From contig NZ_QSDR01000019.1 of NCBI RefSeq assembly GCF_003464085.1, forward strand, positions 1-64,000: a DNA stretch of 64,000 bases, in the 5' to 3' direction. The position numbers and the translations under genes were made by a program. This document shows, piece after piece, positions 7,939 to 23,624 of the stretch (position 1 is its first letter; each line of letters starts with the position of its first letter). The notes beneath the pieces are model-generated. The model made no database searches. It worked only from the letters and a program-made list of their open reading frames with translations, and had not been told where the DNA came from. The DNA comes from Clostridium sp. AM58-1XD (GTDB taxonomy: Bacteria; Bacillota; Clostridia; Lachnospirales; Lachnospiraceae).

Positions 7939-7942
7939 GTGA

Positions 7943-8755: not shown

Positions 8756-8778
8756 AACGCTTCGGCGTTCTTTTTTTT
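8755..8778 (+). terminator. Rho-independent terminator of the kinase/regulator operon
   Basis: GAACGC-TTCG-GCGTTC stem (8755-8770) with a stable tetraloop, followed by eight T residues. It starts at the last base of the regulator stop codon, which supports the regulator reading frame ending at 8755. Confidence 0.9.
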
Positions 8779-8889
8779 AGAAAAATGTCATATTTCACGC
8801 TTTTGTATCAGATATAGAACGGAATTGTGCCCCTGCCTGTGATATGATGTAGCCATAAAAAAGAAGAGATAAACAGAAAGGATTTACAA
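8779..8889 (+). promoter_or_regulatory. Tad operon promoter region with TTTCACGCTTTT motif
   Basis: Lies between the terminator and the prepilin peptidase. The motif TTTCACGCTTTT at 8793-8804 is identical to that at 5529-5540. A TATGAT (about 8842-8847) is a plausible -10, but no good -35 is seen, which would fit activator-dependent transcription. AGAAAGGA precedes the ATG at 8890. Confidence 0.45.
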
Positions 8890-9588
8890 ATGGCAGGGAG
8901 TGTTTCACCGGGATTGATTTTGGGGTGTATAGCCGCAGGGATTGCCGGTTTGGTAGTTGGAAAGCGGACGCCGGAGATAAGCCTGTACTTGATTGAGTAC
9001 AAAGAGGCTAAAAGGGGAGAAGCTTATCAGTACTTTCTGTATCCGGCGTGGAGAAGCTGGCTTTATGCTGTGGGCCTGGCGGTTATCTGGATCATGGCCG
9101 TTTACTGGTATAATCCGATTCAGACAGTAGTCCTGGCGGTTCTGTCGACCGTGGCGATGATGATTATCTATATAGACAATCGCTACCGAATCATTGCCAA
9201 TGAGATTACATTTCCTTTAATGGTGTGCGGCCTTGTTTTGAGTCTGGCAGCCGGAGGGATGGAAGGAGTGGCCGGAAGTCTGGCAGCGGCAGCAATTGGT
9301 CTCCTGCTGTGTTTCCTGTCATCTGTCTTTACAGGAAAAAAAGGCGCTGTGGGTGCAGGTGATGTAAAACTCATGATGGCGGCGGCCCTTGTGAGCGGAT
9401 ATCCGGGTTTCATGTACTTACTGATCTTTATGGCTGCGGCGATGGGGCTTTACTGTATAGCCGGTCTTTTTACAGGAAAACTGTCATTGAAGAGTTATTT
9501 CCCAATGGGAGGATTTGTTGCTGCCGGTATGATATTCGCCTTTGTTGAAGGACAGCTAATGCCCTTGATATACCAGCTGCTGGAATAA
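8890..9588 (+). CDS. Prepilin peptidase, A24 family (TadV/CpaA)
   Basis: 232 residues with about six hydrophobic segments, typical of an aspartic prepilin peptidase embedded in the membrane. The two catalytic aspartates are seen in IYIDNRYRIIANEIT (about residue 97) and in the GxGD motif GAGDVKLM (about residue 157). It cleaves and processes Flp prepilins, two of which are encoded directly downstream. First gene of the Tad operon, 112 bases after the terminator of the regulator operon. Confidence 0.9.
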   Translation: MAGSVSPGLILGCIAAGIAGLVVGKRTPEISLYLIEYKEAKRGEAYQYFLYPAWRSWLYAVGLAVIWIMAVYWYNPIQTVVLAVLSTVAMMIIYIDNRYRIIANEITFPLMVCGLVLSLAAGGMEGVAGSLAAAAIGLLLCFLSSVFTGKKGAVGAGDVKLMMAAALVSGYPGFMYLLIFMAAAMGLYCIAGLFTGKLSLKSYFPMGGFVAAGMIFAFVEGQLMPLIYQLLE

Positions 9589-9624
9589 AGCTCCCAGTTG
9601 CGGGGAATGGGGATGGGGGATGGT

Positions 9625-9783
9625 ATGGACGTTATAAAATGGATACGGTATGAGGAGAGCGGCCAGAGTATGGTGGAGTACGCTTTGATTATGATCATTG
9701 TCTCGGTAGCGGCAGTCAGCGCTTTGAGAGTGATTGGAACCATAGCAACCGGGTATTTTGAACTGGCGGCAGACAAATTTTGA
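9625..9783 (+). CDS. flp: Flp/Fap-type pilin (first copy)
   Basis: 52 residues from the ATG at 9625, chosen because it has a G-rich ribosome-binding site about 5 bases upstream and gives a short leader like that of the second pilin; an in-frame ATG at 9598 is also possible. It carries the Flp signature ESGQSMVEYALI, where cleavage occurs after the Gly, followed by a hydrophobic helix of about 20 residues. It is the substrate of the peptidase encoded upstream and would form the pilus fibre outside the cell. Confidence 0.8.
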   Translation: MDVIKWIRYEESGQSMVEYALIMIIVSVAAVSALRVIGTIATGYFELAADKF

Positions 9784-9869
9784 ATCAATAAGCAAGGATA
9801 GGGAAGAGACGTTCTTTGCTTTTGAGATATATTAAGAAAAATAAAATAACAATAGCAGGAGGATGCAGG

Positions 9870-10064
9870 ATGAAAGGATTTAATGAAGTGAAAAAGTGGT
9901 TTGTGGAAGAAGAAAGCGGCCAGGGTATGGTAGAGTACGGTTTGATTATTGTACTGATCGCCATCGCGGTGGTAACAGCCTTTCGGGAGTGGGAGATAAA
10001 CTGGTTGCTACATTTGAGAACATTTCACAGTCGATTAACCCTACCCCGTAATTTTAGAAATTAA
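9870..10064 (+). CDS. flp: Flp/Fap-type pilin (second copy), C-terminus frameshifted
   Basis: Start at 9870 after AGGAGG. MKGFNEVKKWFVEEESGQGM then VEYGLIIVLIAIAVV is a textbook Flp leader, cleavage motif and helix. After VVTAFRE the visible frame reads WEINWLLHLRTF and ends at 10064. In the neighbouring frame the sequence reads GDKLVATFENISQSINPTP and stops at 10049-10051, which is the usual Flp C-terminus. A one-base deletion near 9989 (CTGGGA read as TGGGA) explains this. Either the major pilin is damaged or the base is a sequencing error. Confidence 0.75.
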   Translation: MKGFNEVKKWFVEEESGQGMVEYGLIIVLIAIAVVTAFREWEINWLLHLRTFHSRLTLPRNFRN

Positions 10065-10092
10065 CACAATAAAATTAATTTGCCGTAGACAG

Positions 10093-10150
10093 GAAAGAGA
10101 CATTGCAATAGAGAGAATTCAATCTCTTTATCTTGCAGTGTCTTTCTTTC
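10093..10150 (+). terminator. Imperfect long hairpin between pilin and cpaB, probable attenuator
   Basis: GAAAGAGACATTGCAA at 10093-10108 pairs imperfectly with TTGCAGTGTCTTTCTTTC ending at 10150, with a smaller GAGAG/CTCTC stem inside. The T-rich right arm fits a leaky terminator. Such a site downstream of a pilin gene would let pilin mRNA exceed that of the assembly genes. Confidence 0.5.
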
Positions 10151-10186
10151 ATAAAGGTAGAAATAAATTGCAGAAAGGGCAAGCCG

Positions 10187-10945
10187 ATGAAGAAGACAAA
10201 ACTGATCTCCCTGCTGGCCGCTATCATCGCGACGATTGCTGTGTGGTCCGCATTGAACAGCCGCAAAGAAGAACAGCTTTCAAATGAAAGGACACGGCCG
10301 GTTGTAACTGCCCGAGTTGAAATACCGGAGGGTACCGTGATTGAGGCGGGCATGCTGGAAGTGAAAGAGGTACCGGAAGAATTTGTGGCAGGCTCCGTCT
10401 TTTCAACCACCGGGGAGGTGGCAAAGAATGTGGCAAAAGGCGATATTGCCGCGGGGGAGCAGATTACAAAGGGCCGCCTTTCCTCTGCGGAGGCGGATGA
10501 AATAGGCCTTGCCTACCGGATTGAGAAGGGAAAAAGGGCAATTACGCTGGAAGTGGGAATCGAGGCCGGAGTTGCCAATACGATCCTTCCCGGCAACAAG
10601 GTGGATATACTGGAGACCAATCTGAATGAGTCCGGAGGACTGACAACCAGCTACTTGCTGCAGCAGGTGGAAGTTCTGGCGGTCGACTCCCATTTAAGAA
10701 GATGGGAAGGAGCAGGCGTGGATGAGTACGCCAGTGTCACATTGTCCGTCACACCGGAAGAGGCATTGCTGGTGGAAATAGACAGTTTCACCGCCAGAAT
10801 GGTAAATGACGGAAATCTGCGTCTGCTTTTAAGACCACAGGATGATGATGGACTCTCGACGGAGCTATCTGTAGAAGCCAGTGCCATTTGGGAGCAGGCA
10901 GCGGCGCCGCCGTCCGACCAGCCGGCAGAACCGGGACAGGAGTAG
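10187..10945 (+). CDS. cpaB: Flp pilus assembly protein CpaB/RcpC (SAF domain)
   Basis: 252 residues from the ATG at 10187, which has AGAAAGGG 8 bases upstream; an upstream in-frame ATG at 10133 lies inside the hairpin and is less likely. One membrane anchor (LISLLAAIIATIAVWSAL) is followed by an SAF domain (VVTARVEIPEGTVIEAGML, to about residue 100) and an RcpC-type region (GKRAITLEV, VDILETN). In monoderm Tad systems this extracytoplasmic protein helps build or guide the pilus through the wall. It is tightly linked to the tadZ gene (5 bases). Confidence 0.85.
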   Translation: MKKTKLISLLAAIIATIAVWSALNSRKEEQLSNERTRPVVTARVEIPEGTVIEAGMLEVKEVPEEFVAGSVFSTTGEVAKNVAKGDIAAGEQITKGRLSSAEADEIGLAYRIEKGKRAITLEVGIEAGVANTILPGNKVDILETNLNESGGLTTSYLLQQVEVLAVDSHLRRWEGAGVDEYASVTLSVTPEEALLVEIDSFTARMVNDGNLRLLLRPQDDDGLSTELSVEASAIWEQAAAPPSDQPAEPGQE

Positions 10946-10950
10946 GAAAA

Positions 10951-12144
10951 ATGAATATCAGGACGCTGTTAGTTGGATTTGATGATGATATGAGAGATCG
11001 GCTCACCTATTTTTTAAGTGAGTCTGAGATAGAGATTAAAGGCGAGATCGGAGATCTGTCACACGGGACGGAAGCGATCGATCGGGATAAACCGGGACTG
11101 CTTCTTGTTGCGGCAACGGCGGAACGCAAGCTTTTCATGTTTTGTCAGCAGGTTTACATTTTATATCCTGAAGTAACCATGGTCATGATTTCTGATATGG
11201 CCGAACCGGAATTACTTGAACTGGCAATGGAAGCTGGTATTCGCAGAGTGTTAGCGCCGATTCCTCAGCGGGAGGAGCTGATCAGCGCCCTTAAAGAGCT
11301 TTGTATTAATGAGAGTTCCCGGCATTTTAACCGTCTTGAACAGGATGCCTCTGTTCCTAAGACTGAGGTCCTCTTTGTGACAGGAGCAGGCGGCGGAATC
11401 GGCAAGACGACACTTGCCGTAAATCTTGCCGTGAAACTGGCTGCATCAAAGCGCAAAGTGGTTTTACTGGATTTTGATATGCAGTATGGAGACAGCGGAC
11501 TGTTTCTCGGGATTGAGTCAAGACAGACGCTGGCAGAGCTGTTGCAGGATCAGAAAACACCGACGCTGGATACGGTCAACTCCTATTTGGAGTACCATCA
11601 GTCGGGGATAAAAGTGCTGTTCGGCCCCAGAAGTCCGGAATACGCGGAGACGATCAGCGGAAAAAACATCGAGAAAATAGTCGGTATCCTGCGAAATTAC
11701 TATGACTATATCGTGATAGACGGAGCGGTTGGGTTCGGAGAGGTCAATCTGTCTGTACTGGATTTCAGTACCTCGGTTCTGATGGCTGTACAGCCGCAAA
11801 TCTGTAATTTGAGAAACACAAAGAAAGCGCTGCTTCTCCTGAACTCTTTAAATATGGAACAGAAGGTTCGCCTGGTACTCATAGAGACTCTTTCCAAATC
11901 TATTTCTACCGCTGATGTGGAGCGGGTTCTGGGCAGAAAGGTGGATACAATTCTCCCGTATGATGAGAAATTCACAACCTCAGCGCTCAATCAGGGAAAG
12001 CCTGTTGTTATGTGTGCGCCTAAAAGTCCCTATACGGTGGGAATATCCCGGCTCTGCGCCATGCTGGAGGGTTCTGTGCCATCAGCTGGAGGGAAACGGA
12101 AAAAGGGAGGACGCACACGGAGAAAATTTGCAAAACGGGGGTAA
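10951..12144 (+). CDS. TadZ/CpaE-like ATPase with receiver-like N-terminus
   Basis: 397 residues from the ATG at 10951 (AGGAG upstream). The first about 120 residues resemble a receiver domain; the rest is a ParA/MinD-type ATPase with P-loop GAGGGIGKTTLAVNLA near residue 145. The signature Lys of the deviant Walker A is replaced by Ala, as in many TadZ proteins. It also shows LLDFDMQYGDSGLFLG and DYIVIDGAVGFGE. TadZ proteins place the pilus machine in the cell. A basic tail (GGKRKKGGRTRRKFAKRG) may contact the membrane or nucleic acid. Confidence 0.85.
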   Translation: MNIRTLLVGFDDDMRDRLTYFLSESEIEIKGEIGDLSHGTEAIDRDKPGLLLVAATAERKLFMFCQQVYILYPEVTMVMISDMAEPELLELAMEAGIRRVLAPIPQREELISALKELCINESSRHFNRLEQDASVPKTEVLFVTGAGGGIGKTTLAVNLAVKLAASKRKVVLLDFDMQYGDSGLFLGIESRQTLAELLQDQKTPTLDTVNSYLEYHQSGIKVLFGPRSPEYAETISGKNIEKIVGILRNYYDYIVIDGAVGFGEVNLSVLDFSTSVLMAVQPQICNLRNTKKALLLLNSLNMEQKVRLVLIETLSKSISTADVERVLGRKVDTILPYDEKFTTSALNQGKPVVMCAPKSPYTVGISRLCAMLEGSVPSAGGKRKKGGRTRRKFAKRG

Positions 12145-12147
12145 AAC

Positions 12148-13473
12148 ATGGGCCTTTTGGAGCGACTGGAACGGGCCAAGCTCGTAAAGGCGGCACAGGA
12201 AAAAGACGTGCAGCCGGAAACTATTGAATACTATGATGAATATGAAGAGTTTAAAGATAAAATTCATATGACGCTGGTTAAACGGGCCAATACCTCATCC
12301 CCGGATGAAAAACCGGTTGATATCAGAACGGTGATAAGCCAGCTGGTGGAGGATGGAGGCGAAGAGCTTCCAAAATCGACGAAGCTGAAGCTGATTCAGC
12401 AGATTTATGACGAGGCGCAGGGACTCGGCCCTCTGGAAAAACTTTTGAGAGATGACTCAATCAGTGAGATTATGGTGAACGGACCGTACAGTGTTTATGT
12501 GGAGCGGAAAGGGCGCCTTGAATTGACGGATATTAAGCTGAAGGATGACCGCTATGTGATGGAGCTGATTGGAAAAATAGCAGGTCCCATCGGCCGCCGG
12601 TGTGATGAGGCCAGTCCGATGCTGGACGCCAGGCTCCCTGACGGTTCCCGTGTAAACGCAATTATTCCGCCCCTCTCTCTGAAAGGACCGTCACTGACCA
12701 TCCGTAAATTCTCAAAGGTTCCCCTCAGGGCGGAAAATCTGATTGAATTTGGTTCTGCTTCGTTTCAGATGATGAATTTTCTGGAGGCCTGCGTAAGAGC
12801 CAAGGCGAATATCATCGTCTGCGGAGGAACGGGAAGCGGGAAAACCACGCTGCTCAATATCCTGTCCGCCTATATACCGGATGACGAGCGCATTGTGACG
12901 ATTGAAGATTCGGCAGAGCTTCAGCTTAGCCAGCGCCATACGATTACGTTAGAGAGCAGGCCGGCCAACGCGGAAGGTATGGGATTGGTTACAATCCGCG
13001 ATCTCGTCAGGAACGCCTTGCGTATGAGACCGGACAGAATTGTGGTCGGAGAGTGCCGTTCCGGAGAGACACTGGACATGCTTCAGGCCATGAATACGGG
13101 TCACGACGGCTCCATGACCACGGCCCATGCAAACTCTTCCAGAGATGTCATATCCAGACTGGAGACCATGGTGCTGATGGCCGGAATGGACCTGCCCGTC
13201 AAGGCGATCCGGGAGCAGATATCTTCGGCTTTTGATATTATCGTAAATCAGGCGAGAATGAAGGACGGCAGCAGAAAGATTGTGGAAATTTCAGAGGTGG
13301 TCGGCATGGAATCAGATGTGGTTACGCTTCAGACGATCTATCAGTTTAATCTGGAAGGCTATGATAATACGGGAAAAGCGCTCGGACATTTCCGCCCCAC
13401 AGGTATATGGCCCAGAGTTGCTGCTAAAATGGAGGATCGCGGGATTCACGCTTTGGATTCCTGGTTCGCGTAG
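12148..13473 (+). CDS. tadA: Tad secretion ATPase TadA/CpaF
   Basis: 441 residues, the usual length. It is a type II/IV secretion ATPase with Walker A GGTGSGKTTLLN at about residues 226-236, Asp/Glu-box ERIVTIEDSAELQL, His-box region TGHDGSMTTAHANSS and Walker B RPDRIVVGECRSGE. It powers Flp pilus assembly at the inner face of the membrane. It begins 3 bases after tadZ and is followed 11 bases later by tadB. Confidence 0.95.
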   Translation: MGLLERLERAKLVKAAQEKDVQPETIEYYDEYEEFKDKIHMTLVKRANTSSPDEKPVDIRTVISQLVEDGGEELPKSTKLKLIQQIYDEAQGLGPLEKLLRDDSISEIMVNGPYSVYVERKGRLELTDIKLKDDRYVMELIGKIAGPIGRRCDEASPMLDARLPDGSRVNAIIPPLSLKGPSLTIRKFSKVPLRAENLIEFGSASFQMMNFLEACVRAKANIIVCGGTGSGKTTLLNILSAYIPDDERIVTIEDSAELQLSQRHTITLESRPANAEGMGLVTIRDLVRNALRMRPDRIVVGECRSGETLDMLQAMNTGHDGSMTTAHANSSRDVISRLETMVLMAGMDLPVKAIREQISSAFDIIVNQARMKDGSRKIVEISEVVGMESDVVTLQTIYQFNLEGYDNTGKALGHFRPTGIWPRVAAKMEDRGIHALDSWFA

Positions 13474-13484
13474 AGGAGGCTGTC

Positions 13485-14426
13485 ATGGAAATTTTGTTGT
13501 TGTCGCTGCTGTTCGGCGTATACGTGTTCTCGCTGGGCTTGTTTCTATTTAGAGTGGTTTTCAACGGAAAGAGTAATCTTGAGAAGGCGCTTGACGCAAT
13601 CCAGGCGATGGGAAAGAAGGGAGAGACCGGTAAGAGAGAGGCGCAGAAGAAAAAGAAGAAGAAAAAGATAATTGGCTTTGACGTATCTGAAAAGTTGAGA
13701 GAAGAGCTGGAAAGTTCCGGTATAAAGATGAGCGGTCAGGAATATCTGCTCCTCTGGGGCGGTCTGATTACATTTCCTTCTATGATGGTCTATTTCCTCA
13801 CCGGGAGAATCGGTATGGTACTGCCGCTGCTTGCCGTCTGTGTCGTGCTGCCCCCGGTTATAGTGAAAATGCTGCGGAAGAAACGGCTCGAAAAATTTTC
13901 CGGACAGCTGGGGGATGCTCTGATGACGGTGAGCAACTGTCTGCGCAGCGGATTTTCTTTCCGTCAGGCCATCGACCGGGTCAGTACGGATATGCCAAAC
14001 CCGATAGCGGAAGAGTTTAAGACGGCGCTTCAGGAAGTAAGTTATGGAGCGTCGATGGAGAGTGCGCTGGGAGGTATCGCCAGGCGCATGGAAAACAGCG
14101 ATATGGAAATGATTAATTCGGCGATTATAGTTCAACAACAGGTGGGCGGCAATCTGTCCGAGGTAATTGATAATATATCCGATACGATTAAAGACCGCAT
14201 TCGAATCCGCCAGAGCTTGAAGACACTGACGGCCCAGGGGAGGATGTCCGGCTTGATTCTGGGGCTTTTGCCGGTATTCGCGCTGGTTTTTCTGACTTTT
14301 ATAAACCCGGAGTATATGAGCACATTTTATACAACAGATTTCGGAAAAATGCTGCTGATTGTGTCATTTCTCATGGAGTGTACGGGATTCCTCGTTATAC
14401 GTAAAATCGTAAATATTAAAATTTAG
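13485..14426 (+). CDS. tadB: Tad pilus inner-membrane platform protein TadB
   Basis: 313 residues with a type II secretion GspF-like domain: SGQLGDALMTVSNCLRSGFS, ALQEVSYGASMESALGGIAR, IIVQQQVGGNLSEVIDNISD. Hydrophobic segments lie at the N-terminus, around residues 90-125 and at the C-terminus. A Lys-rich stretch (QKKKKKKKI) follows the first helix. It pairs with TadC and sits on TadA. GAGG lies upstream of the ATG. Confidence 0.9.
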   Translation: MEILLLSLLFGVYVFSLGLFLFRVVFNGKSNLEKALDAIQAMGKKGETGKREAQKKKKKKKIIGFDVSEKLREELESSGIKMSGQEYLLLWGGLITFPSMMVYFLTGRIGMVLPLLAVCVVLPPVIVKMLRKKRLEKFSGQLGDALMTVSNCLRSGFSFRQAIDRVSTDMPNPIAEEFKTALQEVSYGASMESALGGIARRMENSDMEMINSAIIVQQQVGGNLSEVIDNISDTIKDRIRIRQSLKTLTAQGRMSGLILGLLPVFALVFLTFINPEYMSTFYTTDFGKMLLIVSFLMECTGFLVIRKIVNIKI

Positions 14427-14437
14427 GGGGCCGGTCG

Positions 14438-15190
14438 ATGCGGTATTTATTGAAAACACACACCCTGGCGGGACTCACGGTGAGAGTGTTTATGTGTACA
14501 CTTATGCTGGTGCTCCTGCTGTCCGGGGCGGCGCCCGCGGACGACGGCAGCTCTGGAATCAGTTATGAAAATACAGGCGCAGTCATAATAAAGCTCATGG
14601 AAGATGAGAACAGCCAGCCGGGGTACATCTATACGGATGTTGTCTTTTCCAGCCAGACGGAGGTGGAGAGTTTCGCGCAGTATTTCTATAAAAGTTATTA
14701 TTATGGAAGCACGCAGGTGAAAGTGGGTTACTCGACACGTTCAGACATGCCGGGAGAGTACAGCCTCTGCGTCTATACGGAAAAGCCTCAGGAGGCAGCC
14801 AGAGAACAGCGGGTAGTCGAGAAAAAACTGGAAGAGGCGGCCGCCGGTATGAGTGCTCAGGGCGATTATGACAGGGCGATGGAAGTCTATCAGTGGACAT
14901 ACGATCAGTTTGAATACGATTACAGCTTAAAAAGTATTAATGTATACAGTGCCTTTGAGACAGGTAAAACGGTATGCAACGGTTACGCCCGGATTTTTCA
15001 GGCCCTTTGCGCCGGAAGAGGGCTGGAGTGTGAGATTGTGTATGGCGTGGATCATGCCTGGAATCGAGTGATGCTGGACGGCCAGTGGAGATATGTTGAC
15101 ATAACATGGAATAAGAATATATCTGAAAACAGATGGCTGTTTCTGCGGGAAGAAGAGATGGGCAGTCACCAAAAACAGCTGGAGGTATAG
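14438..15190 (+). CDS. Secreted transglutaminase-like protein
   Basis: 250 residues with an N-terminal signal or anchor (VFMCTLMLVLLLSGAAPADD) and a transglutaminase-like core: Cys 180 in GKTVCNGYARIFQALC, His 206 in VDHAWNRVML and Asp 221 in YVDITWN, so the Cys-His-Asp triad is intact. It is placed between tadB and tadC, with 11 and 3 bases of spacing, so it should be made with the pilus. In this family members act as cysteine proteases or cross-linking enzymes; cross-linking or trimming of pilin or wall partners is an inference. Confidence 0.8.
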   Translation: MRYLLKTHTLAGLTVRVFMCTLMLVLLLSGAAPADDGSSGISYENTGAVIIKLMEDENSQPGYIYTDVVFSSQTEVESFAQYFYKSYYYGSTQVKVGYSTRSDMPGEYSLCVYTEKPQEAAREQRVVEKKLEEAAAGMSAQGDYDRAMEVYQWTYDQFEYDYSLKSINVYSAFETGKTVCNGYARIFQALCAGRGLECEIVYGVDHAWNRVMLDGQWRYVDITWNKNISENRWLFLREEEMGSHQKQLEV

Positions 15191-15193
15191 GAT

Positions 15194-16096
15194 ATGAGAG
15201 ATTGGATTGCGGTAATGAGTACAGGAATCTGTATATACTGTACCGTCTTATTTCTCTTGGAGAGGAAAAATATGGCGCTTCAGGATCAGCTGAACGCGGT
15301 GGAAATGCTGGGCAAGGAAAACAAAGGGACGCAAAAACGGTACAAAGGATTTTTTATCACGCGGTTTCTGAAAGCGGTGCTGGGCAGGCTGCTTGTCCGG
15401 ATCGGCTCTTTTCTTCCAGTGAATAGTCAGGACCAAGAAAGGATTTCCCTTCTGATGTATCAGAGCGGATTCAATATGAAGCCGGAGGAATACATTGCGC
15501 TTCAGTTCCTGCTGATGGGCGGCGGCGGTCTGGCCGGGTTGTATTACGGTTATATGACGGGAATCAGTATGCCTTTGTCCGCTGGTATCGGAGTGTATGC
15601 GTTTTATGTCATCCTGCGCTTCAGCGCGTCGGGGAGAGCGGCCAGGAGAAGGGAAAAAATAGAAAAACAGTTTCCGGAAATCCTGGATTTGCTGAGTATC
15701 AGCGTGGAAGCCGGTCTTGGTTTCAGCCAGGCAATGCAGTACATTACAGAGCAGTGCCAGGGACCTTTGATAGAGGAGTTTCAGATCGCGGTGCGCGCTA
15801 TGGGGCTTGGACAGAGCCGGAGGACGGCATTAGAGGAAATGTCACTCCGATGTGGACTTGACGAGATTAATATCTTTGTAGGAGCAGTGATACAGGCAGA
15901 TGAGCTGGGGATATCACTTAAGAATATTCTGACCGCACAGGCCAGAGAAATGCGTAACTTAAGACGGATGAAAACGGAAGAGCAGGCTCAGAAGATCCCC
16001 GTGAAAATGCTGCTGCCTCTGAGCGTTTTTATCTTTCCAATTATGATGATTGTCATTATGGGACCTGCTGTCCCTAAGATGATGTCCATGTTTTAA
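15194..16096 (+). CDS. tadC: Tad pilus inner-membrane platform protein TadC
   Basis: 300 residues with an N-terminal membrane helix and a GspF-type domain: FPEILDLLSISVEAGLGFSQ, EFQIAVRAMGLGQSRRTALE, FVGAVIQADELGISLKNIL, ending in hydrophobic helices (MLLPLSVFIFPIMMIVIMG). It complements TadB in the assembly platform. ATG at 15194 follows the transglutaminase gene by 3 bases (GGAGGTATAGGAT upstream). Confidence 0.9.
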   Translation: MRDWIAVMSTGICIYCTVLFLLERKNMALQDQLNAVEMLGKENKGTQKRYKGFFITRFLKAVLGRLLVRIGSFLPVNSQDQERISLLMYQSGFNMKPEEYIALQFLLMGGGGLAGLYYGYMTGISMPLSAGIGVYAFYVILRFSASGRAARRREKIEKQFPEILDLLSISVEAGLGFSQAMQYITEQCQGPLIEEFQIAVRAMGLGQSRRTALEEMSLRCGLDEINIFVGAVIQADELGISLKNILTAQAREMRNLRRMKTEEQAQKIPVKMLLPLSVFIFPIMMIVIMGPAVPKMMSMF

Positions 16097-16109
16097 GGCG
16101 GTGAAAACA

Positions 16110-16493
16110 ATGAAATACTGTATGAGAGCCGGTGATGATACCGGGCTGTTTCTGGAGAATGTATCGATAGCAGATAATTTCTGCGCGCGTTTTTGGGGGC
16201 TGATGGGCCGAAAACAGATTGGAATGGAAGAAGGGCTTTTTTTGAAACGGGTATCGTGTATCCATACATGTTTTATGCGTTTTCCTATCTGCGCGGTATA
16301 TCTGGACAAGAACCTTTGTGTTGTGGATAAAGAGGTCATCCGGCCGTGGCGCTGCGGAAAGCTCTGTAAAGGGGCAGCCCACGTTTTGGAAGTACACCAG
16401 GAGCAATGGAAGAATGTCAGGGTATCTGCAAAGATGGTGCTGGAAAGCAGGGGGCAGGAAATGTCGGATGGAAACGGAGGAGATGGCAGATGA
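16110..16493 (+). CDS. DUF192 family protein
   Basis: 127 residues from the ATG at 16110; AAGGCGG at 16095-16101 is its ribosome-binding site, so the in-frame GTG at 16101 is rejected. The DUF192 signature is present: ARFWGLMGRKQIGMEEGLFL, then CIHTCFMRFPICAVYLDKN, VVDKEVIRPWR and ALHVLE-like AAHVLEVHQEQW. Small DUF192 proteins are often found next to Tad pilus genes, but their role is unknown. The stop overlaps the next start by 4 bases. Confidence 0.8.
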   Translation: MKYCMRAGDDTGLFLENVSIADNFCARFWGLMGRKQIGMEEGLFLKRVSCIHTCFMRFPICAVYLDKNLCVVDKEVIRPWRCGKLCKGAAHVLEVHQEQWKNVRVSAKMVLESRGQEMSDGNGGDGR

Positions 16494-17818
16494 GTAAGTT
16501 GGAAGATGAGCGGAAAGAGCCTGACAAAACGGATGAGCTGAGCGACATGCGCAGGGAATACGAGCAGGCGGATCTGGAGGAAAGCCTGAAGCGTGTGCTC
16601 TTTGGCGGATATTCAAAAAAGAAGGTAAATGAAGTTTTAAGCACTTATAAGGAAATGATTCGATGGATGCAGGAGAGCTTCGACTATCGCTTGAAAGAGC
16701 TGAACGAAGAGAAAGAACGTGTCTGGAATGAGCGCGTTGTCCTGAAAAAGCAGCTGAGTGCGGAGCTGGAAAAAAATAAAAAGACAGAGTCTCTGAAAGA
16801 GGAAGCCGAGCGTTGGAAGCAGCAGTATGAGGATGATTGCATTACTTTGAAAAAGCAGCTGAACGCCCAGATAGAAAAAAATGGAAATATAATTGCGCTG
16901 AAGGAGGAGGCCGAGCGCTGGAAGCGGCAATATAAGGATGACTGTGCTGTCCTGAAAAAACAGCTGAATGTGGAATTAGAGAAAAATAAAAAACTGGACT
17001 TACTGGAAGAAGAGGCCGAGCGTTGGAAGCAGCAGTACCAGGGAATGAAAGAGAAATATGAACGGTCTTACACAGAACTTCAGCGTGTCAATGAAGAGAA
17101 GACAAACCGGCCGGCTCAGGCGACGGATGAGGAAGGCAGTTCATCTCTGATTATCTCACTGACCAGTCAGCTGGAAGAACTGACATCGTACTGTGAATCC
17201 ATGGAGAAACAGCAGAGAAGCCTGGAGATTCAGATTTCAAGTATGAAGAATATCAGCCAGGAGCTGGAGCGTCTGTCCGCTCAGTATGAAGAAAATCAGG
17301 CGGAGTTAAAAGATGCCAGACTCAGATATGCCAATGTCAAGAACGAAAACAACGCATTAAACAGCGAGATGGAGTCAACCGGACGGATTCTCGAGGAGAT
17401 ACTGGAGCAGTTTGAGCAGAAGGAAGCTGAAAATGATGTGCTGCGTCGGCAGGTGGATGAATTTCAGGAACAGCTTCTGGCGGTTAAGAGAGAAAAGCTG
17501 ACGCAGGAACAGGCGAATCTAAGTTACATGGAGCGCGCCTATACTGCGGAACGAGAACGCCAGGAGGACAGGGAGGAGCTGTATCTTGTTAAAAAGGAGC
17601 TTGAAGAGCTTAGGAAAAAATGCGACTCTCTCGAAAAAAGCAAGGTTATAAAGATTCAGAGTGTGGCGGAACCGAAAGAGGCGGAAATTTCCGAAAAAGA
17701 ACGGATCGAGAGGATTCTCAAACGGGCTTCATCTGTGGCGGAGAGAGCGGCTGAACAGGGTGAGAAGAGCGTGAGAGAAGACACGGCAAGGTTTACAGAT
17801 GGAAAAGAAATACTGTGA
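16490..17818 (+). CDS. Coiled-coil protein with DivIVA-like N-terminus
   Basis: 442 residues from the ATG at 16490 (CGGAGGAG upstream; ATGA overlap with the DUF192 gene). Residues about 25-60 (VLFGGYSKKKVNEVLSTYKE) recall the DivIVA/GpsB membrane-curvature motif. Residues about 85-190 contain three tandem repeats of 34-35 residues built on LKKQL-x-E-x-EKN...EEAERWKQQY, and the remainder is continuous coiled coil. No membrane helix is seen. It may position the pilus machine at a pole or septum, which is inference. Its stop lies 23 bases before the chosen start of the CO dehydrogenase. Confidence 0.65.
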   Translation: MSKLEDERKEPDKTDELSDMRREYEQADLEESLKRVLFGGYSKKKVNEVLSTYKEMIRWMQESFDYRLKELNEEKERVWNERVVLKKQLSAELEKNKKTESLKEEAERWKQQYEDDCITLKKQLNAQIEKNGNIIALKEEAERWKRQYKDDCAVLKKQLNVELEKNKKLDLLEEEAERWKQQYQGMKEKYERSYTELQRVNEEKTNRPAQATDEEGSSSLIISLTSQLEELTSYCESMEKQQRSLEIQISSMKNISQELERLSAQYEENQAELKDARLRYANVKNENNALNSEMESTGRILEEILEQFEQKEAENDVLRRQVDEFQEQLLAVKREKLTQEQANLSYMERAYTAERERQEDREELYLVKKELEELRKKCDSLEKSKVIKIQSVAEPKEAEISEKERIERILKRASSVAERAAEQGEKSVREDTARFTDGKEIL

Positions 17819-17840
17819 CAGAGATAAAACGGAGGAAGCT

Positions 17841-19733
17841 ATGAGTCATCAGACAGAACAATTAAGATGTGACATCTGCCCCAGCGCGGATAAGGAGCTG
17901 GAAAAATATATTGGAGAACTGCCGTACGAAACGTCTTTTCACAGAGTGGAGGGACAGTCTGTCAAGTGTGGATTTGGGCTTATGGGAACATGCTGCCGCC
18001 TCTGCGCCAACGGACCCTGCCGGATTGTCCCGGGAGGTGAGCGGGGAATCTGCGGCGCAGATGCCGACACGATCGTAGTGCGCGGTTTTTTAAGAGCTGT
18101 GGCAAGCGGTTCCGGATGCTATATACATGTGGCTGAAAACGCAGTCAGAAATCTGAAAAAAACGGCTATGGCCAGAGGTAGATTTACGAGTGTCAGAGCG
18201 CTGGGACGTCTGGCAGCCATTCTCGGAATAGAGATGAAAGAAAATATTTACGAGACGGCGATGGAGCTGGCGGATGCCATTAAGCAGGATCTTTACCGGG
18301 AGACGGATCATAAGATGCGTTTTATAAGGGCGCTGAGTCTTCCGCAGCGGTATGAAGTGTGGAAACGGATGGAGATTCTTCCCGGCGGCGCCAAGGCGGA
18401 GGTATTTGACGGGGCGGTAAAAACATCTACAAACCTGTCCAGCGATCCGGAGGATATGCTCCTTCACTGTCTGCGCCTTGGGATTTCCACAGGGATTTAT
18501 GGCCTCAAGCTGACGAATCTGATCAGTGACATCCTGATCGGGGAGCCGGAAATCCACTTCGCTCCGGTCGGCCTTCAGGTGATCGACCCGGACTATATCA
18601 ATATTATGGTGACAGGCCATCAGGAAATACTCTTTTCGCAGATCATGCAGGCGGCATCCTCACCTGAGGGAATGGCTGCCGCAGTAAGCGCGGGGGCGAA
18701 GGGATTCCGCATTGTGGGCTGTACCTGTGTTGGACAGGATATGCAGCAGAGAAAGGCGCAGTATCAGGATGTTTATGCGGGAACAGCCGGCAACAATTTT
18801 GTGAGTGAAGCAGTCCTGTCCACCGGGGCAATTGACGGTGTCATATCTGAGTTTAACTGTACTCTGCCCGGAATCGAGGAGCTCTGCTCCTTACTGGACG
18901 TAGAACAAATCTGTATTGATAAAATGGCCAAAAAGAAGACGGCGGAGTTCATTCCGTACAATTTTGAGACAGCGGCCGAGGACGCAATGAAGATATTAAA
19001 TCAGATAGCAAAACGGTATAAAATCAGGCGGGGCAGGGTGAAAATATGTCTGCCGGAACACCATGGAAACAGACAAAGTCTGGCGGGTTTAAGTGAGCTG
19101 TCTCTGAAACAATTCATGGGAGGCGCCTGGAAGCCGTTACTCGAACTCATTATCAGCGGAAAAGTGAAAGGCATTGCAGGCGTAGTAGGCTGTTCCAGCC
19201 TGGATGGAGGCCATGATGTGCTGACGGAACGGTTGGTCAGGGAGCTCATAAAAAAAGATATTCTCGTCCTGAGTGCTGGCTGTACGTCAGGAGGGCTTTC
19301 CAACTGCGGGTTAATGGAAGCCGGCGCCGCCGAACTGGCCGGGGAATCTCTGAGGGAGGTGTGCCTTGCCCTTGGAATTCCGCCAGTGTTGAATTTTGGT
19401 TCCTGTCTGGCGATCGGAAGACTGGAGATGGTGGCGGAAGAACTGGCCGGAGAGTTGGAAATTGACATTTCCCAGCTACCGCTGGTTCTCTCGGCTGCCC
19501 AATGGCTGGAAGAGCAGGCTCTCGCCGATGGCGCGTACGGTCTGGCTCTGGGCCTTACGCTTCATCTTGGAAAAGCGCCGTTTGTGGCGGGAAGTCCGCT
19601 GGCAGTCGATGTTCTTACAAGACAGATGGAAGGGATCACAGGCGGCCGTCTCATCCTTGAGGAGGATGGATGCGCTGCCGCCAAGCAGCTGGAAGAGGTT
19701 ATTATGCAGAAGAGAAAAGCCCTTAACATATAG
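17841..19733 (+). CDS. cooS: Anaerobic Ni-Fe-S carbon monoxide dehydrogenase catalytic subunit
   Basis: 630 residues from the ATG at 17841, chosen for GGAGG at 17831-17835; an earlier in-frame ATG at 17799 would overlap the coiled-coil gene. It carries the D/B-cluster cysteines (CDICP; CGFGLMGTCCRLCANGPCRI; GICGADADT) and C-cluster ligand regions: His in TGHQEILF, Cys in VGCTCVGQDMQ, FNCTLP, GVVGCSS, SAGCTSGGLSNCGL and NFGSCLAIGR. It oxidises CO to CO2 (or the reverse). No acetyl-CoA synthase subunits are nearby, so a redox or CO-scavenging role with the next two genes is likely. Confidence 0.93.
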   Translation: MSHQTEQLRCDICPSADKELEKYIGELPYETSFHRVEGQSVKCGFGLMGTCCRLCANGPCRIVPGGERGICGADADTIVVRGFLRAVASGSGCYIHVAENAVRNLKKTAMARGRFTSVRALGRLAAILGIEMKENIYETAMELADAIKQDLYRETDHKMRFIRALSLPQRYEVWKRMEILPGGAKAEVFDGAVKTSTNLSSDPEDMLLHCLRLGISTGIYGLKLTNLISDILIGEPEIHFAPVGLQVIDPDYINIMVTGHQEILFSQIMQAASSPEGMAAAVSAGAKGFRIVGCTCVGQDMQQRKAQYQDVYAGTAGNNFVSEAVLSTGAIDGVISEFNCTLPGIEELCSLLDVEQICIDKMAKKKTAEFIPYNFETAAEDAMKILNQIAKRYKIRRGRVKICLPEHHGNRQSLAGLSELSLKQFMGGAWKPLLELIISGKVKGIAGVVGCSSLDGGHDVLTERLVRELIKKDILVLSAGCTSGGLSNCGLMEAGAAELAGESLREVCLALGIPPVLNFGSCLAIGRLEMVAEELAGELEIDISQLPLVLSAAQWLEEQALADGAYGLALGLTLHLGKAPFVAGSPLAVDVLTRQMEGITGGRLILEEDGCAAAKQLEEVIMQKRKALNI

Positions 19734-19742
19734 GAGAAAAAG

Positions 19743-20189
19743 ATGAAACGCATTATGATTGACGCATCCCTGTGTACCGGCTGTTTAAATTGCAGCATTG
19801 CGTGTATGAATGCCCATAGAGATTCCAAAAAAATTGGTGCGTTTAACGCAGCAGATCCTGAGAATCCGCCCAGGAACAGAGTGGAACAGCGAAAAAAGAA
19901 ATATTATCCGGTATTCTGCCGCTGCTGCAGCGATCCGGACTGTGTAAATACCTGCATGAGCAAGGCACTTTCAAAGGACAGTGAGACTGGTCTTGTCACA
20001 TATGACGAGAAAGCGTGCGCAAAATGCTTTATGTGCGTCATGGCGTGCCGGTATGGGCATCCGAGACCGTCCGCAGGTTTAGACAGAGTTATACGTTGCG
20101 ATTTCTGCCGGGATACGGAGGAGAAGGAACCGCAGTGTGTGAAAGCGTGTCCTGTAAAAGCCATTTATATACAGGAGGTAAGCCTATGA
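19743..20189 (+). CDS. cooF: CooF-like ferredoxin, four [4Fe-4S] cluster motifs
   Basis: 148 residues with four Cys clusters: CTGCLNCSIACMNAH, CRCCSDPDCVNTC, CAKCFMCVMACRYGH and CDFCRD...CVKACP. This is the CooF/HycB-type electron carrier that takes electrons from CooS. It lies 9 bases after cooS and overlaps the oxidoreductase start by 4 bases, so the three products should be made together. Confidence 0.9.
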   Translation: MKRIMIDASLCTGCLNCSIACMNAHRDSKKIGAFNAADPENPPRNRVEQRKKKYYPVFCRCCSDPDCVNTCMSKALSKDSETGLVTYDEKACAKCFMCVMACRYGHPRPSAGLDRVIRCDFCRDTEEKEPQCVKACPVKAIYIQEVSL

Positions 20190-21502
20190 AGTATGCGATT
20201 ATAGGAAGCAGCGCAGCCGGTATTTCCGCCGCAGAAGAGCTGCGTAAGCTGGAAGAAAACGCAGAGATCACTGTAATATCCATGGAGGATCGTATTTATT
20301 CCCGCTGCATGCTCCATAAGTATCTGAGCGGAGAGCGCACGGCTGACAGGATGAAATTTATTCGGGACGGTTTTTTCACAGAACTGGGGATACGGTTTCT
20401 GGGCGGCCGCAGCGTAATCTCAATACAGGAGACGGATCATATGCTGATTTTGGACGACGGTAGCCAAATTATATATGATAAGCTTCTGATCGCTGCGGGA
20501 GCCTCATACTATATTCCTCCCATCCCCAATTTCAGAGATGCGTTAAATGTTTTGGGGTTTCGCAGCATGGAGGATGCGGATAAACTTATAAAAGCCACTG
20601 AGAAGCCGGGCAGACAGGCCGTGATTATCGGAGGAGGACTGATCGGGCTGGATACGGCTTACGGCCTGGAAAAAAGAGGATGTAAGGTGACTCTGATCGA
20701 GAAGGAACCGTACCTCATGCCGCTACAGACCGACGCGTATGTGTCGGATCTGTACAGAGAGGCGTTTGAGCGGGCCGGCTGCAATATCATGTTGAATGCA
20801 GAGGTAAAAGATTCCACCCTTGACGAAAACGAGAGGATCACCCATGTGATTCTGGATGACGGCACGGAAATACCATGTGATTTTGTGATCGCGGCAACCA
20901 GTGTAAAACCGAGAATGGAATTTTTAAATGGAACAAGCATCCAGGCTTTGTATATGAATTACCATATTCATACCGTATTGAGCCGTTTTCTAAAAAAGAC
21001 AGATATTCATGTCAACAAGGGACTGGAGGTAGATGGACAGATGCGCACCAGTTCCCCCGACATCTATGCCGCAGGGGATGTAACCGGACTGTCCGCCATA
21101 TGGCCCGACGCAAAGCGCATGGGTAAAATTGCCGCAGCCAGTATGTGCGGGGGAGGCCCGGGAGAACAGGATTTTTATCAATTCAAAAATATGGCAAATT
21201 TTTATGGAATTGTCATGTTTTCAGCAGGTAAGACAAGGGTAGACGAAAAGCGGTATGAGGTGCTGGTGAGGCGCAGCCGCGGGACTTACAGAAAACTGAT
21301 CATCAAGGAAGGTGTGTTGGAAGGCGTTCTGATGGTGGGAGATGTGTCAAACGCGGGGGTCTATCTCCATGCCGTATCCCATCACCTGAATATTGAAAAG
21401 GTACGCAATCATCTGTTCCGGCTGTCATTTGCCGATTGGTATGGATATGATGAGACGACAGGTGAATTCTGCTATCAGGCAGAAGAGCAGGAGCCGCTAT
21501 GA
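20186..21502 (+). CDS. FAD-dependent NAD(P)H oxidoreductase of the CODH cassette
   Basis: 438 residues from the ATG at 20186 (AGGAGGT upstream; ATGA overlap with cooF). A pyridine nucleotide-disulphide oxidoreductase fold is shown by the FAD motif GSSAAGISAAEELRK, the NAD(P) motif VIIGGGLIGLDTAYGLEKRG and the second FAD motif SSPDIYAAGDVTG. It resembles NADH:rubredoxin or nitrite-reductase-type enzymes that follow cooS and cooF in other anaerobes, where they may pass CO-derived electrons to NAD(P)+ or to a peroxide-reducing rubredoxin. The final 4 bases overlap the start of a pilus gene. Confidence 0.88.
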   Translation: MKYAIIGSSAAGISAAEELRKLEENAEITVISMEDRIYSRCMLHKYLSGERTADRMKFIRDGFFTELGIRFLGGRSVISIQETDHMLILDDGSQIIYDKLLIAAGASYYIPPIPNFRDALNVLGFRSMEDADKLIKATEKPGRQAVIIGGGLIGLDTAYGLEKRGCKVTLIEKEPYLMPLQTDAYVSDLYREAFERAGCNIMLNAEVKDSTLDENERITHVILDDGTEIPCDFVIAATSVKPRMEFLNGTSIQALYMNYHIHTVLSRFLKKTDIHVNKGLEVDGQMRTSSPDIYAAGDVTGLSAIWPDAKRMGKIAAASMCGGGPGEQDFYQFKNMANFYGIVMFSAGKTRVDEKRYEVLVRRSRGTYRKLIIKEGVLEGVLMVGDVSNAGVYLHAVSHHLNIEKVRNHLFRLSFADWYGYDETTGEFCYQAEEQEPL

Positions 21503-22722
21503 GAGGTTTTATAAATAAAATGAAATACCGGTTTTTCCAAAATGAACGCGGACAGGGTTTGGTGGAGTTTGTGCTGATCTTACCGATTCTAATCATATTT
21601 TTAAGCGGAGTGGCCGACACCGGATGGATGATTTACAATTATACCAGTCTGTTTGACCTGACCGACACAGCGGTTCACGCGAATACGAAAGCGGATCAGG
21701 CCGAGGCGGAGGAATATATAAATTTATATATCCGCAATTCATTTCCGGAATTTGATATGGATTCTATGACGATTTCCCCTACTACCCAGGTAAGGCAGTA
21801 TGAATACTTCGAGTATATATGGAAGAAGAATCAGAGAAAGCATTGGAAGGTACCAATGTACTGCAAAACCCTGAAGACAGGTCTGACTATAACCTATCAG
21901 GTGGATTACCTGACGCCTATGGGCAAAATCATATTCGGAGACACGGATAACAGTATGGAAATGACGTCCCACTCCGTGGCTGTAAAGGTTCTGGAGAATG
22001 AAGCTACAAGCTGGAGGAAACGGATGAAGACTGATCTGAAAAAAAGGGCATGCAATGAGACGGGGCAGGCGATGGTTGAATTTATATTGATTCTTCCGCT
22101 GCTGTTACTGCTTATTATGGGTTGTCTGGAAATTTCCTGGTATTTGACCAGCAAGTACAATTTAAACCAGTATGCATCGACGGTAGGGCATAATGTGGAG
22201 GCTCCATTCTGGATATACTGGTCTGAATCAGCGGGACCCAGAGACTGGACAGATGTGAGGGATGGGCGAAAACCTTCCTGGCTCAGTCCGCAGGAACAGG
22301 CCCTGTGGAGTTTTGACGAGTATGACGGATGGTATGCGTTTGCAGAACCGGCTCCGGGTGAAGTGATCGGAAGCAATTATTTCCGGGCGGCGTACGACAA
22401 TAAGAATCTGTTCAACGAGCGTCTCGATGACAGTTTCACACTGCTTGACAGAAATGAGGTTTCTTATACGATGAGGGGAGGATGGTATATTAACGCAGAA
22501 GCGCTCCATCTTCCGGCAGGTGGCGGCGGAGACTGGAAACAGAAGCGGTTTTCAGAAAAAATAGAGTTTCATACGGCAGATATCCGGGTGGATATGGTTT
22601 ATCATTACAAACCCCTTACGCCCCTTGGAGAATGGCTGTTCTGCCAGGACGGAAGGGACTACGTTGAGATGAGGACAGAAGGCCGTTATGTATTCAATCT
22701 TCAACCTGCGATTTATGGATAG
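21499..22722 (+). CDS. Double TadE-like pilus assembly protein
   Basis: 407 residues. Two separate TadE-type units are seen: ERGQGLVEFVLILPILIIFL near residue 20 and ETGQAMVEFILILPLLLLLI near residue 190, each a G-Q-x-x-VEF prepilin-like motif followed by a membrane helix and an extracytoplasmic part. Most TadE pseudopilins hold one such unit, so this is probably a fusion of two tandem genes. It starts within the stop of the CODH oxidoreductase (ATGA). It would act as a minor pseudopilin of the Tad system. Confidence 0.8.
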   Translation: MRGFINKMKYRFFQNERGQGLVEFVLILPILIIFLSGVADTGWMIYNYTSLFDLTDTAVHANTKADQAEAEEYINLYIRNSFPEFDMDSMTISPTTQVRQYEYFEYIWKKNQRKHWKVPMYCKTLKTGLTITYQVDYLTPMGKIIFGDTDNSMEMTSHSVAVKVLENEATSWRKRMKTDLKKRACNETGQAMVEFILILPLLLLLIMGCLEISWYLTSKYNLNQYASTVGHNVEAPFWIYWSESAGPRDWTDVRDGRKPSWLSPQEQALWSFDEYDGWYAFAEPAPGEVIGSNYFRAAYDNKNLFNERLDDSFTLLDRNEVSYTMRGGWYINAEALHLPAGGGGDWKQKRFSEKIEFHTADIRVDMVYHYKPLTPLGEWLFCQDGRDYVEMRTEGRYVFNLQPAIYG

Positions 22723-22784
22723 CATTCTGGTGATATGTCAGGAGGAATTTAAAGAAGAAAACTTATTATACTAGGAGGCATAAT

Positions 22785-23303
22785 ATGTTGAAAGGTACCA
22801 TAAAAAATGTGGTGGAGAAAGAAGAGGGCAGCGTCATGGTGTTTGGCGCGTTTGGAATTGTCCTTTTGCTTATGTTTATGGCTGTTATGGTAGACATGGG
22901 GCTGTACTACGTAGAGCGTAAAAAATTAGAGACTGCTGCAGATTATATGGACGATGAAGTAAGACAGATGCTTCCTTATTATTCATATGCTGATGATTAT
23001 CAGGAGACAATGAAGAATGAATTTTACGCAAATATGAATGAGCTTGGCTATACGTCCGCCAATATAGACAATCTCCGCATCAAAAGAACATATGGAAGCA
23101 ATACTGGAAATCCGCTTATTTCGGTGCAGCTGAACATTTCCTTAAAAGATACATACCACTGCATATTTTTGCCGGTTATCGGAATATCGGAACTGAAGAT
23201 TCATGTGACCAACAATCAGATAGTACATTATAATGTGGATAAAATCTATAAAGAGGGAATGCCCTGTGTAGAATGGAAAGAGGGTATCGAGCTGACAGAT
23301 TAA
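22785..23303 (+). CDS. TadG-like pilus assembly protein
   Basis: 172 residues beginning with a short basic segment, then EEGSVMVFGAFGIVLLLMFM and a long helix (MAVMVDMGLYYVERKKLETA) typical of the TadE/TadG N-terminus that anchors the protein. The remainder is a small extracytoplasmic domain; no von Willebrand domain is present, so it is shorter than classic TadG. AGGAGG is upstream of the ATG. Last gene of the Tad operon. Confidence 0.75.
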   Translation: MLKGTIKNVVEKEEGSVMVFGAFGIVLLLMFMAVMVDMGLYYVERKKLETAADYMDDEVRQMLPYYSYADDYQETMKNEFYANMNELGYTSANIDNLRIKRTYGSNTGNPLISVQLNISLKDTYHCIFLPVIGISELKIHVTNNQIVHYNVDKIYKEGMPCVEWKEGIELTD

Positions 23304-23340
23304 ATTAACTAAATATTTTATGGGAAATAACAGAACCGGG

Positions 23341-23381
23341 GGTGCCGCAAAATCATCAAAAACAGATGATTGAGCGGCACC
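23341..23381 (+). terminator. Hairpin after the Tad operon
   Basis: GGTGCCGC (23341-23348) pairs with GCGGCACC (23374-23381), with an inner AATCATC/GATGATT stem. No strong T-run follows, so it may be a weak terminator. Its outer arms resemble those of the dispersed hairpin family listed at 58597. Otherwise nothing gene-like lies between 23304 and 23597. Confidence 0.55.
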
Positions 23382-23624
23382 TTCCTGTGCTTAAAATATC
23401 CGTAATTAAGGCAGTATCCGGTATGTCCCGGAATCTCTCTTTTTAGTAAGATACTCCCACGTCTGCATTTGAATACGGGTTAAACGAACGGATCCATGAG
23501 GAAAGCACACTAACCACATAACAGAAAATCTGATCTCCAGATAGCAAAAACAGGTATAATATGGTAAAATAAGATCAGTAAATTTCTTAACGGAACAATG
23601 ATTACAAATGAAAAGGACCTCACT

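Follow-up and report, generated by a model that had tools for sequence, protein, structure and literature searches.

Why should the genes of a nickel carbon monoxide dehydrogenase (Ni-CODH) lie in the middle of a pilus operon, and do the enzyme and the pilus have anything to do with one another? The question is raised by a stretch of 64,000 nucleotides from Clostridium sp. AM58-1XD (contig NZ_QSDR01000019.1, positions 1 to 64,000), here called the window, in which cooS, cooF and a gene for an FAD-NAD(P) oxidoreductase (FNOR) run in the same direction, flanked by a coiled-coil gene and tadE, within a complete Tad (type IVc) pilus locus. Comparison with related genomes indicates that an existing Tad operon acquired this cassette and then retained it, and that the cassette stayed in the pilus locus while species diverged hints that the two work together. 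The genes concerned, beginning with the cassette and its immediate neighbours, are as follows.

17841..19733, + strand: cooS, clade C Ni-CODH-like, 630 amino acids (TIGR01702, 699 bits against a cut-off of 478; Prismane PF03063)
19743..20189, + strand: cooF-like polyferredoxin, 148 amino acids with 17 Cys (Fer4_11, E 2.4e-16, and the Cys count)
20186..21502, + strand: FNOR, FAD-NAD(P) oxidoreductase with a Rubredoxin_C domain, 438 amino acids (PF07992, Pyr_redox_2, E 7.3e-52; PF18267, E 4.9e-9)
16490..17818, + strand: coiled-coil protein with a DivIVA-like N-terminal motif, 442 amino acids (open reading frame listed from 16406; no Pfam family)
21499..22722, + strand: tadE, two TadE domains in one open reading frame (PF07811, E 7.1e-20, two stretches)
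22785..23303, + strand: tadG-like gene (PF13400, E 7.8e-8)
16101..16493, + strand: DUF192 gene, immediately 3' of tadC (PF02643, E 1e-10)
15194..16096, + strand: tadC (PF00482, E 2.3e-20)
14438..15190, + strand: transglutaminase-like protein inside the Tad operon (PF01841, E 3.5e-11)
13485..14426, + strand: tadB (PF00482, E 2.4e-20)
12148..13473, + strand: tadA ATPase (PF00437, 221 bits; TIGR03819, 337 bits, below the cut-off of 373)
10948..12144, + strand: cpaE/tadZ-like ATPase (PF13614, E 2.5e-14)
10181..10945, + strand: cpaB/rcpC (PF16976, E 1.9e-16)
9870..10064, + strand: Flp pilin (PF04964, E 5.2e-7, 29.8 bits, slightly below the cut-off of 32.2)
8890..9588, + strand: prepilin peptidase, tadV-like (PF01478, E 3.6e-15)
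5608-7938, + strand: histidine kinase, upstream of the Tad operon (PF06580, PF02518 and PF00072 for the kinase-regulator pair)
7943-8401, with a similar remnant to 8755, + strand: response regulator, upstream of the Tad operon

A Tad locus is recognised by tadA, tadB, tadC, a prepilin peptidase, Flp pilin, rcpC/cpaB, cpaE/tadZ and tadE. All of these are present in the window, the Flp pilin and TIGR03819 matches lying below their curated cut-offs, and they follow the order histidine kinase, response regulator (5608-8755), prepilin peptidase, Flp pilin, cpaB/rcpC, cpaE, tadA, tadB, transglutaminase-like gene, tadC, DUF192, coiled coil, cooS, cooF, FNOR, two-domain tadE and tadG, all on the + strand. 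The three cassette genes are neighbours on that single strand. The first-pass annotation had described a complete cooS-cooF-oxidoreductase set built into a Tad operon, and the family matches (TIGR01702, Fer4_11 and Pyr_redox_2/Rubredoxin_C, with a full Tad set around them) agree with this description. The 4-base overlaps that it reported on either side of the oxidoreductase gene are likewise real, as ATGA is found at 20186-20189 for cooF/FNOR and at 21499-21502 for FNOR/tadE. Its cooS start at 17799, which would give a 20-base overlap with the coiled-coil gene, has to be abandoned. The true start is most likely the ATG at 17841, because GGAGG stands just 5' of it and the homologue in a related genome, G150, uses the same start position; the gap between the coiled-coil gene and cooS is therefore 22 bases, and that between cooS and cooF is 9 bases. 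The further claim, that no terminator interrupts the operon, is matched by a pattern scan of the window, which listed no + strand terminator-like site between 16184 and 23417 and a clear one just after the regulator (8754-8771). This terminator-free stretch fits a single message without proving it. Promoter-like sites in 8400-23700 number 20, versus 18.3 (standard deviation 4.1) in shuffles, so that there is no excess, and the scan decides neither for nor against a separate promoter.

Is the arrangement peculiar to this genome? A family-wide draw of 250 genomes contained 60 with a CooS match, mostly distant, and all of the 22 places (in 21 genomes) where CooS is at least 50% identical were examined. 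Two of these lie in a Tad locus, one in G150 (L035) and the other in G001 contig 8 (L054). Both genomes (L056/L035 and L101/L054, respectively) share the order histidine kinase, response regulator, tadV, flp, cpaB, cpaE, tadA, tadB, tadC, DUF192, coiled coil, cooS, cooF, FNOR, tadE, tadE, tadG, with homologues of the window's kinase and regulator at the head of the locus. The sole departure of L035 from the window order is that no transglutaminase-like gene was matched there. Identity to the window is 76% for CooS and 87% for TadA in G150, and 61-65% and 76%, respectively, in G001. The spacing in G150 is base-for-base that of the window, with gaps of 22 and 9 and overlaps of 4 and 4, and this repetition places the layout beyond chance. 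The objection that close relatives might lack the cassette at the same Tad locus, raised in the first-pass annotation, fails, since the cassette is present in the two closest Tad loci found. Database proteins are suggestive of further cases: coiled-coil, CooS and TadE proteins come from a contig of the same size (15219 bases) in one case, and coiled-coil and CooS proteins in another (19530). For the other nine of the 11 coiled-coil database relatives (not counting the window's own protein), no CooS from a contig of the same size was found among the 14 of 120 CooS compared. One of the nine, from Clostridium sp. AN503 (P0125), shares a contig size with TadE (P0138), the CooS list showing cluster representatives.

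Gain and loss can be told apart with Tad loci that are more distant. Fourteen related loci with TadA 55-62% identical (L090, L091, L107, L108 and L138-L147) passed E 1e-125 (397 genomes) or 1e-130 (392 genomes), and cooS or FNOR was found in none of the 14; L141 ends before the relevant place, leaving 13 informative. L145 has a CooF-like match, 28% identical, about 4 kb downstream. The DUF192 gene stands immediately after tadC in 12 of the 13, and the N-terminal profile of the coiled coil matches the gene in the same position in four of the 13 loci searched with it (L138, 7.8e-9; L090, 1.4e-8; L140, 1.2e-4; L139, 4.7e-4; L091 left out). The gene after DUF192 in L107 and L108 matches DivIVA under the cut-off (18.8 and 23.5 bits, respectively, versus 28), and elsewhere it went unrecognised. 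The window coiled-coil protein itself has no match to Pfam DivIVA and is called DivIVA-like only. Two tadE genes and then tadG follow in L138 and L090, as in the window, L090 having an extra short coiled-coil open reading frame between. L138 shows the empty site: its coiled-coil gene runs to 9966, past the earliest possible start of tadE at 9959, so that the two overlap. By this comparison the DUF192 and coiled-coil genes are Tad-locus genes older than the cassette, the coiled coil because its profile matches same-position genes of the cassette-free L138 and L090. The cassette was gained rather than lost, because it is missing only from the more distant Tad loci, and probably once, a single gain being the simplest history.

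TadA of the window, G150 and G001 form one clade (support 100/100), and CooS of the same three Tad loci fall in one group of 14 rows, 11 of which are proteins without a seen gene context, with support of 99 in a quick tree (58 rows) and 100/98 in a careful one (36 rows); these trees took 32 and 20, respectively, of the 120 listed database CooS. For both proteins G001 branches outside the window and G150. The GC content at third codon positions (GC3) of the cassette genes, 0.50-0.56, falls inside the 0.45-0.59 of the Tad genes measured, so the cassette is no fresh arrival. A recent chance insertion is ruled out by the arrangement common to three species with ordered divergence and by a GC3 without foreign signature. 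Carriage on plasmids was also rejected, as a tblastn search of 72,556 plasmid records (E 1e-60) returned a single match of 32% identity, on a record of 2.6 Mb.

What kind of enzyme was acquired can be read from its residues. The window CooS was aligned with 139 others, of which genomes supplied 19 and the protein search 120, without G141 and the broken G001 copies; all B-, C- and D-cluster ligands are kept in 140 of 140, those of the C-cluster being His260 and Cys296, 340, 451, 481 and 522. A decayed enzyme is thus not supported. The D-cluster is of type II (Cys-X7-13-Cys-Cys), with Cys43 and Cys51-Cys52, and the N-terminal motif of 2-4 Cys is represented by Cys10 and Cys13; of the 140, 98 have a Cys at position 10 and 139 have one at position 13. 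In every aligned sequence Tyr94 and Gln559 replace the acid-base His and Lys; on alignment to 6t7j they face a His and a Lys, which we take to be the catalytic acid-base pair. Table 2 of PMC6344411 agrees with this and confines the combination of Tyr and Gln to clade C, within which group C-1 is marked by an N-terminal Cys pair and accompanied by CooF and FNOR (PMC6344411). By its residue signature the window CooS is assigned to clade C, because the Tyr/Gln pair occurs in clade C only, and to group C-1, because of its N-terminal Cys pair. Clade C is without a settled function and is regarded in PMC13056359 as probably low in or devoid of activity, no firm conclusion being drawn. The 'CO oxidation' of the first-pass annotation is therefore too strong as written, given a signature typical of a clade of uncertain role; CO oxidation by the window cassette is possible.

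A second block in G001 bears on whether the cassette and its neighbours form a unit. On contig 3, DUF192, the coiled coil (31.6% identical), cooS, cooF and FNOR are repeated and are followed by homologues of the kinase and regulator (regulator 52%). Upstream of this block (C3) lie a coupling protein of a type IV secretion system (T4SS; PF02534, E 9.7e-50), a TraG-like ATPase and a protein that matches PilN under the cut-off; the 60 kb inspected (L109, L058, L059) yielded no Tad gene. The two-component pair, which precedes the Tad locus in the window, G150 and G001 contig 8, follows the cassette in C3. Wherever CooS was found in G001 (two places) and in G150 (one), the locus has a coiled-coil gene. 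In the trees the C3 CooS stands outside the Tad CooS group, but joining them is not rejected (approximately unbiased test, p 0.27), so the C3 and Tad cassettes may stem from one recruitment or from two. The coiled coil, cassette and two-component pair staying together without Tad genes is the best sign of a functional unit, a hint from one draft genome. The functional link, which we infer, is strengthened by this second block.

Outside Tad loci the enzyme is found in other company. Twelve CooS matches at E 1e-150 or better, G150 among them, came from 391 genomes drawn across the class; the other 11, with the 19 family-draw places that remain after those of G150 and G001, make up 30 non-Tad CooS loci, each inspected over 20 kb at most, some of the contigs being short. 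All three genes, cooS, cooF and FNOR, are present in 24 of the 30. A TadA-like ATPase, 31% identical, lies 8 kb off in one of them (L038), a regulator-like match occurs in two and a transglutaminase-like match in one. Among 145 relatives of G150, seven CooS matches reached 1e-200 or better, namely G150 and six of the 19 family-draw loci.

How, then, is the union to be explained? The readings considered are not exclusive, and the likelihoods given to them need not sum to one. Favoured, on somewhat better than even terms, is that the cassette is a redox or O2/CO stress module whose production coincides with that of the pilus. As the comparison shows, a common ancestor of three or more species took up a clade C Ni-CODH/CooF/FNOR cassette into its Tad operon, precisely at the junction of the DivIVA-like coiled-coil gene with tadE, and its descendants retained it. 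The cassette is probably transcribed along with the pilus genes, and, to judge from the family, electrons would leave the C-cluster of the CODH by way of its B/D clusters and reach NAD(P) through CooF and FNOR, or travel the opposite way. Its likely use would be to cope with redox stress, with trace O2 or with CO on surfaces where Tad pili serve; the tie to the pilus would lie in common timing, which the kinase/regulator pair may set, and not in membership of the filament. According to PMC6344411, the C-1 cassette of C. ljungdahlii goes up upon oxygen exposure. A tighter coupling, in which the coiled coil is a scaffold holding CooS-CooF-FNOR at the pilus or secretion machine, where assembly would be gated by the redox state of the complex or by its sensing of CO/O2, is doubtful. 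It gains from C3, where coiled coil, cassette and two-component pair are united beside T4SS and TraG-like genes, and from the coiled coil being present in every locus where CooS was found in G001 (two) and G150 (one); however, C3 is known from a single draft genome, L138 and L090 have the coiled-coil gene but no cassette, and in 30/30 non-Tad loci the cassette or cooS stands without a coiled coil. Direct control of the pilus by the cassette is possible. A wider proposal, tentative and on balance unlikely, sees the clade C CODH-CooF-FNOR unit as a redox-sensing module that controls or powers envelope machines and was recruited along with the DivIVA-like coiled coil and the two-component pair; it would have joined the Tad pilus operon and recurs next to type IV secretion genes.

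It is also rather unlikely that the cassette is a neutral passenger, landed by chance at a harmless, expressed spot and serving general metabolism. The clean junctions would suit such an origin, as would the same cassette elsewhere, with all three genes in those 24 of 30 loci and none near tadC, tadE, DUF192 or the coiled coil, whereas the order kept while CooS diverged to 61-65% identity, the junctions identical in two species and the second G001 block with coiled coil and regulators speak against it. Least probable is a true CO oxidation unit from which attached cells exposed to CO of the host would draw NAD(P)H. The C-cluster ligands are complete, and the CooS of T. kivui, placed in clade C by PMC13056359, slowly oxidises CO with a Km(CO) of 5 uM and is required for growth on CO (PMC8683389). 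However, the acid-base His and Lys have given way to Tyr and Gln in 140/140, the T. kivui CooSF1 falls 15- and 231-fold short of the CODH/ACS complex in activity (PMC8683389), and the T. kivui enzyme is early-branching and from a CO-adapted strain (PMC13056359).

Several observations weigh against a stress module made along with the pilus. The arrangement is rare, being that of just two of the 22 places from the family draw; complete loci are known from three genomes only, one of them (G001) a draft with frame breaks, and no other genome was listed with a TadA as close as those of G150 and G001 in the overlapping draws of 250, 397 and 392 genomes. None of the 30 non-Tad CooS loci, some on short contigs, has a match to tadB, tadC, tadE, tadG, DUF192 or the coiled coil, so the enzyme does not require a pilus. 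G150 has weak + strand terminator-like sites (5 pairs) in the end of FNOR (L035 12677-12693) and in tadE (13110-13123); weak sites of the same sort also fall inside the window Tad genes, which makes the terminator scan noisy. The stress role, finally, is extrapolated from other species.

The cassette and the Tad locus are each of known kinds. Clade C (C-1/C-2) Ni-CODHs with CooF and FNOR are described from C. ljungdahlii and C. autoethanogenum (PMC6344411), and the window has the same three genes, the Tyr/Gln pair, the type II D-cluster and the N-terminal Cys pair. The partners of C-1/C-2 enzymes in the passages of PMC6344411 examined are FNOR, CooF, an NsrR/IscR-like regulator and unknown proteins, with no pilus operon, whereas the window cassette lies inside one. 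Human-gut CODH contexts fall into eight types, including the FNOR type that the window shares (PMC11338639). The word 'pilus' is absent from the main texts of PMC6344411 and PMC11338639, and 'pil' and 'Tad' from that of PMC13056359. With the Tad (type IVc, Flp) locus of Clostridia the window has in common the ordered tadV, flp, cpaB, cpaE, tadA, tadB, tadC, tadE and tadG, to which it adds DUF192 and the DivIVA-like coiled coil, also present in cassette-free relatives, and the CODH cassette, present in 0/14. Among the open-licence PMC papers listed, none suggested a link between CODH and Tad, Flp or pilus assembly, judged by title and abstract start; in the sole hit of one search the pilus words belong to a reference title. 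As far as these searches tell, the lasting union of cassette and pilus locus is undescribed in open-licence PMC papers.

We know of no earlier cell-surface role for any CODH. The envelope-machine module, if true, would be the first such role and would assign a function to the enigmatic clade C. A pilus link, if shown, would connect anaerobic redox or CO metabolism with surface attachment in gut-type bacteria. The cassette in the pilus operon, with its cassette-free relatives as natural controls, offers a direct route to clade C function, through the signal that switches the cassette on and the behaviour of pili in its absence.

A number of minor observations concern the surrounding genes. DUF192 after tadC is a steady element of this Tad subfamily (L090, L107, L108, L138-L140; also L142-L147), with the DivIVA-like coiled coil next in several, and the two are possible uncharacterised Tad components of Clostridia. 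Named database relatives are Clostridium sp. AN503 and chh4-2 (for the coiled coil) and Robinsoniella. The T4SS-like locus of G001 contig 3 (L001, L058, L109) also carries a choline-binding protein. In the window, the response regulator frame (7943-8755) has an in-frame stop after codon 152, the remainder still resembling the open G150 homologue (L035 1-792). The two TadE domains that form one open reading frame in the window (21499-22722) are two genes in G150, L090 and L138, and all 17 of 17 database relatives of the two-domain protein cover only 54-57% of it. FNOR (20186-21502) has a Cys close to its N-terminus, in the motif YSRCMLHKYLSG, presumably at roughly the position of the redox Cys of related disulfide reductases and NADH oxidases.

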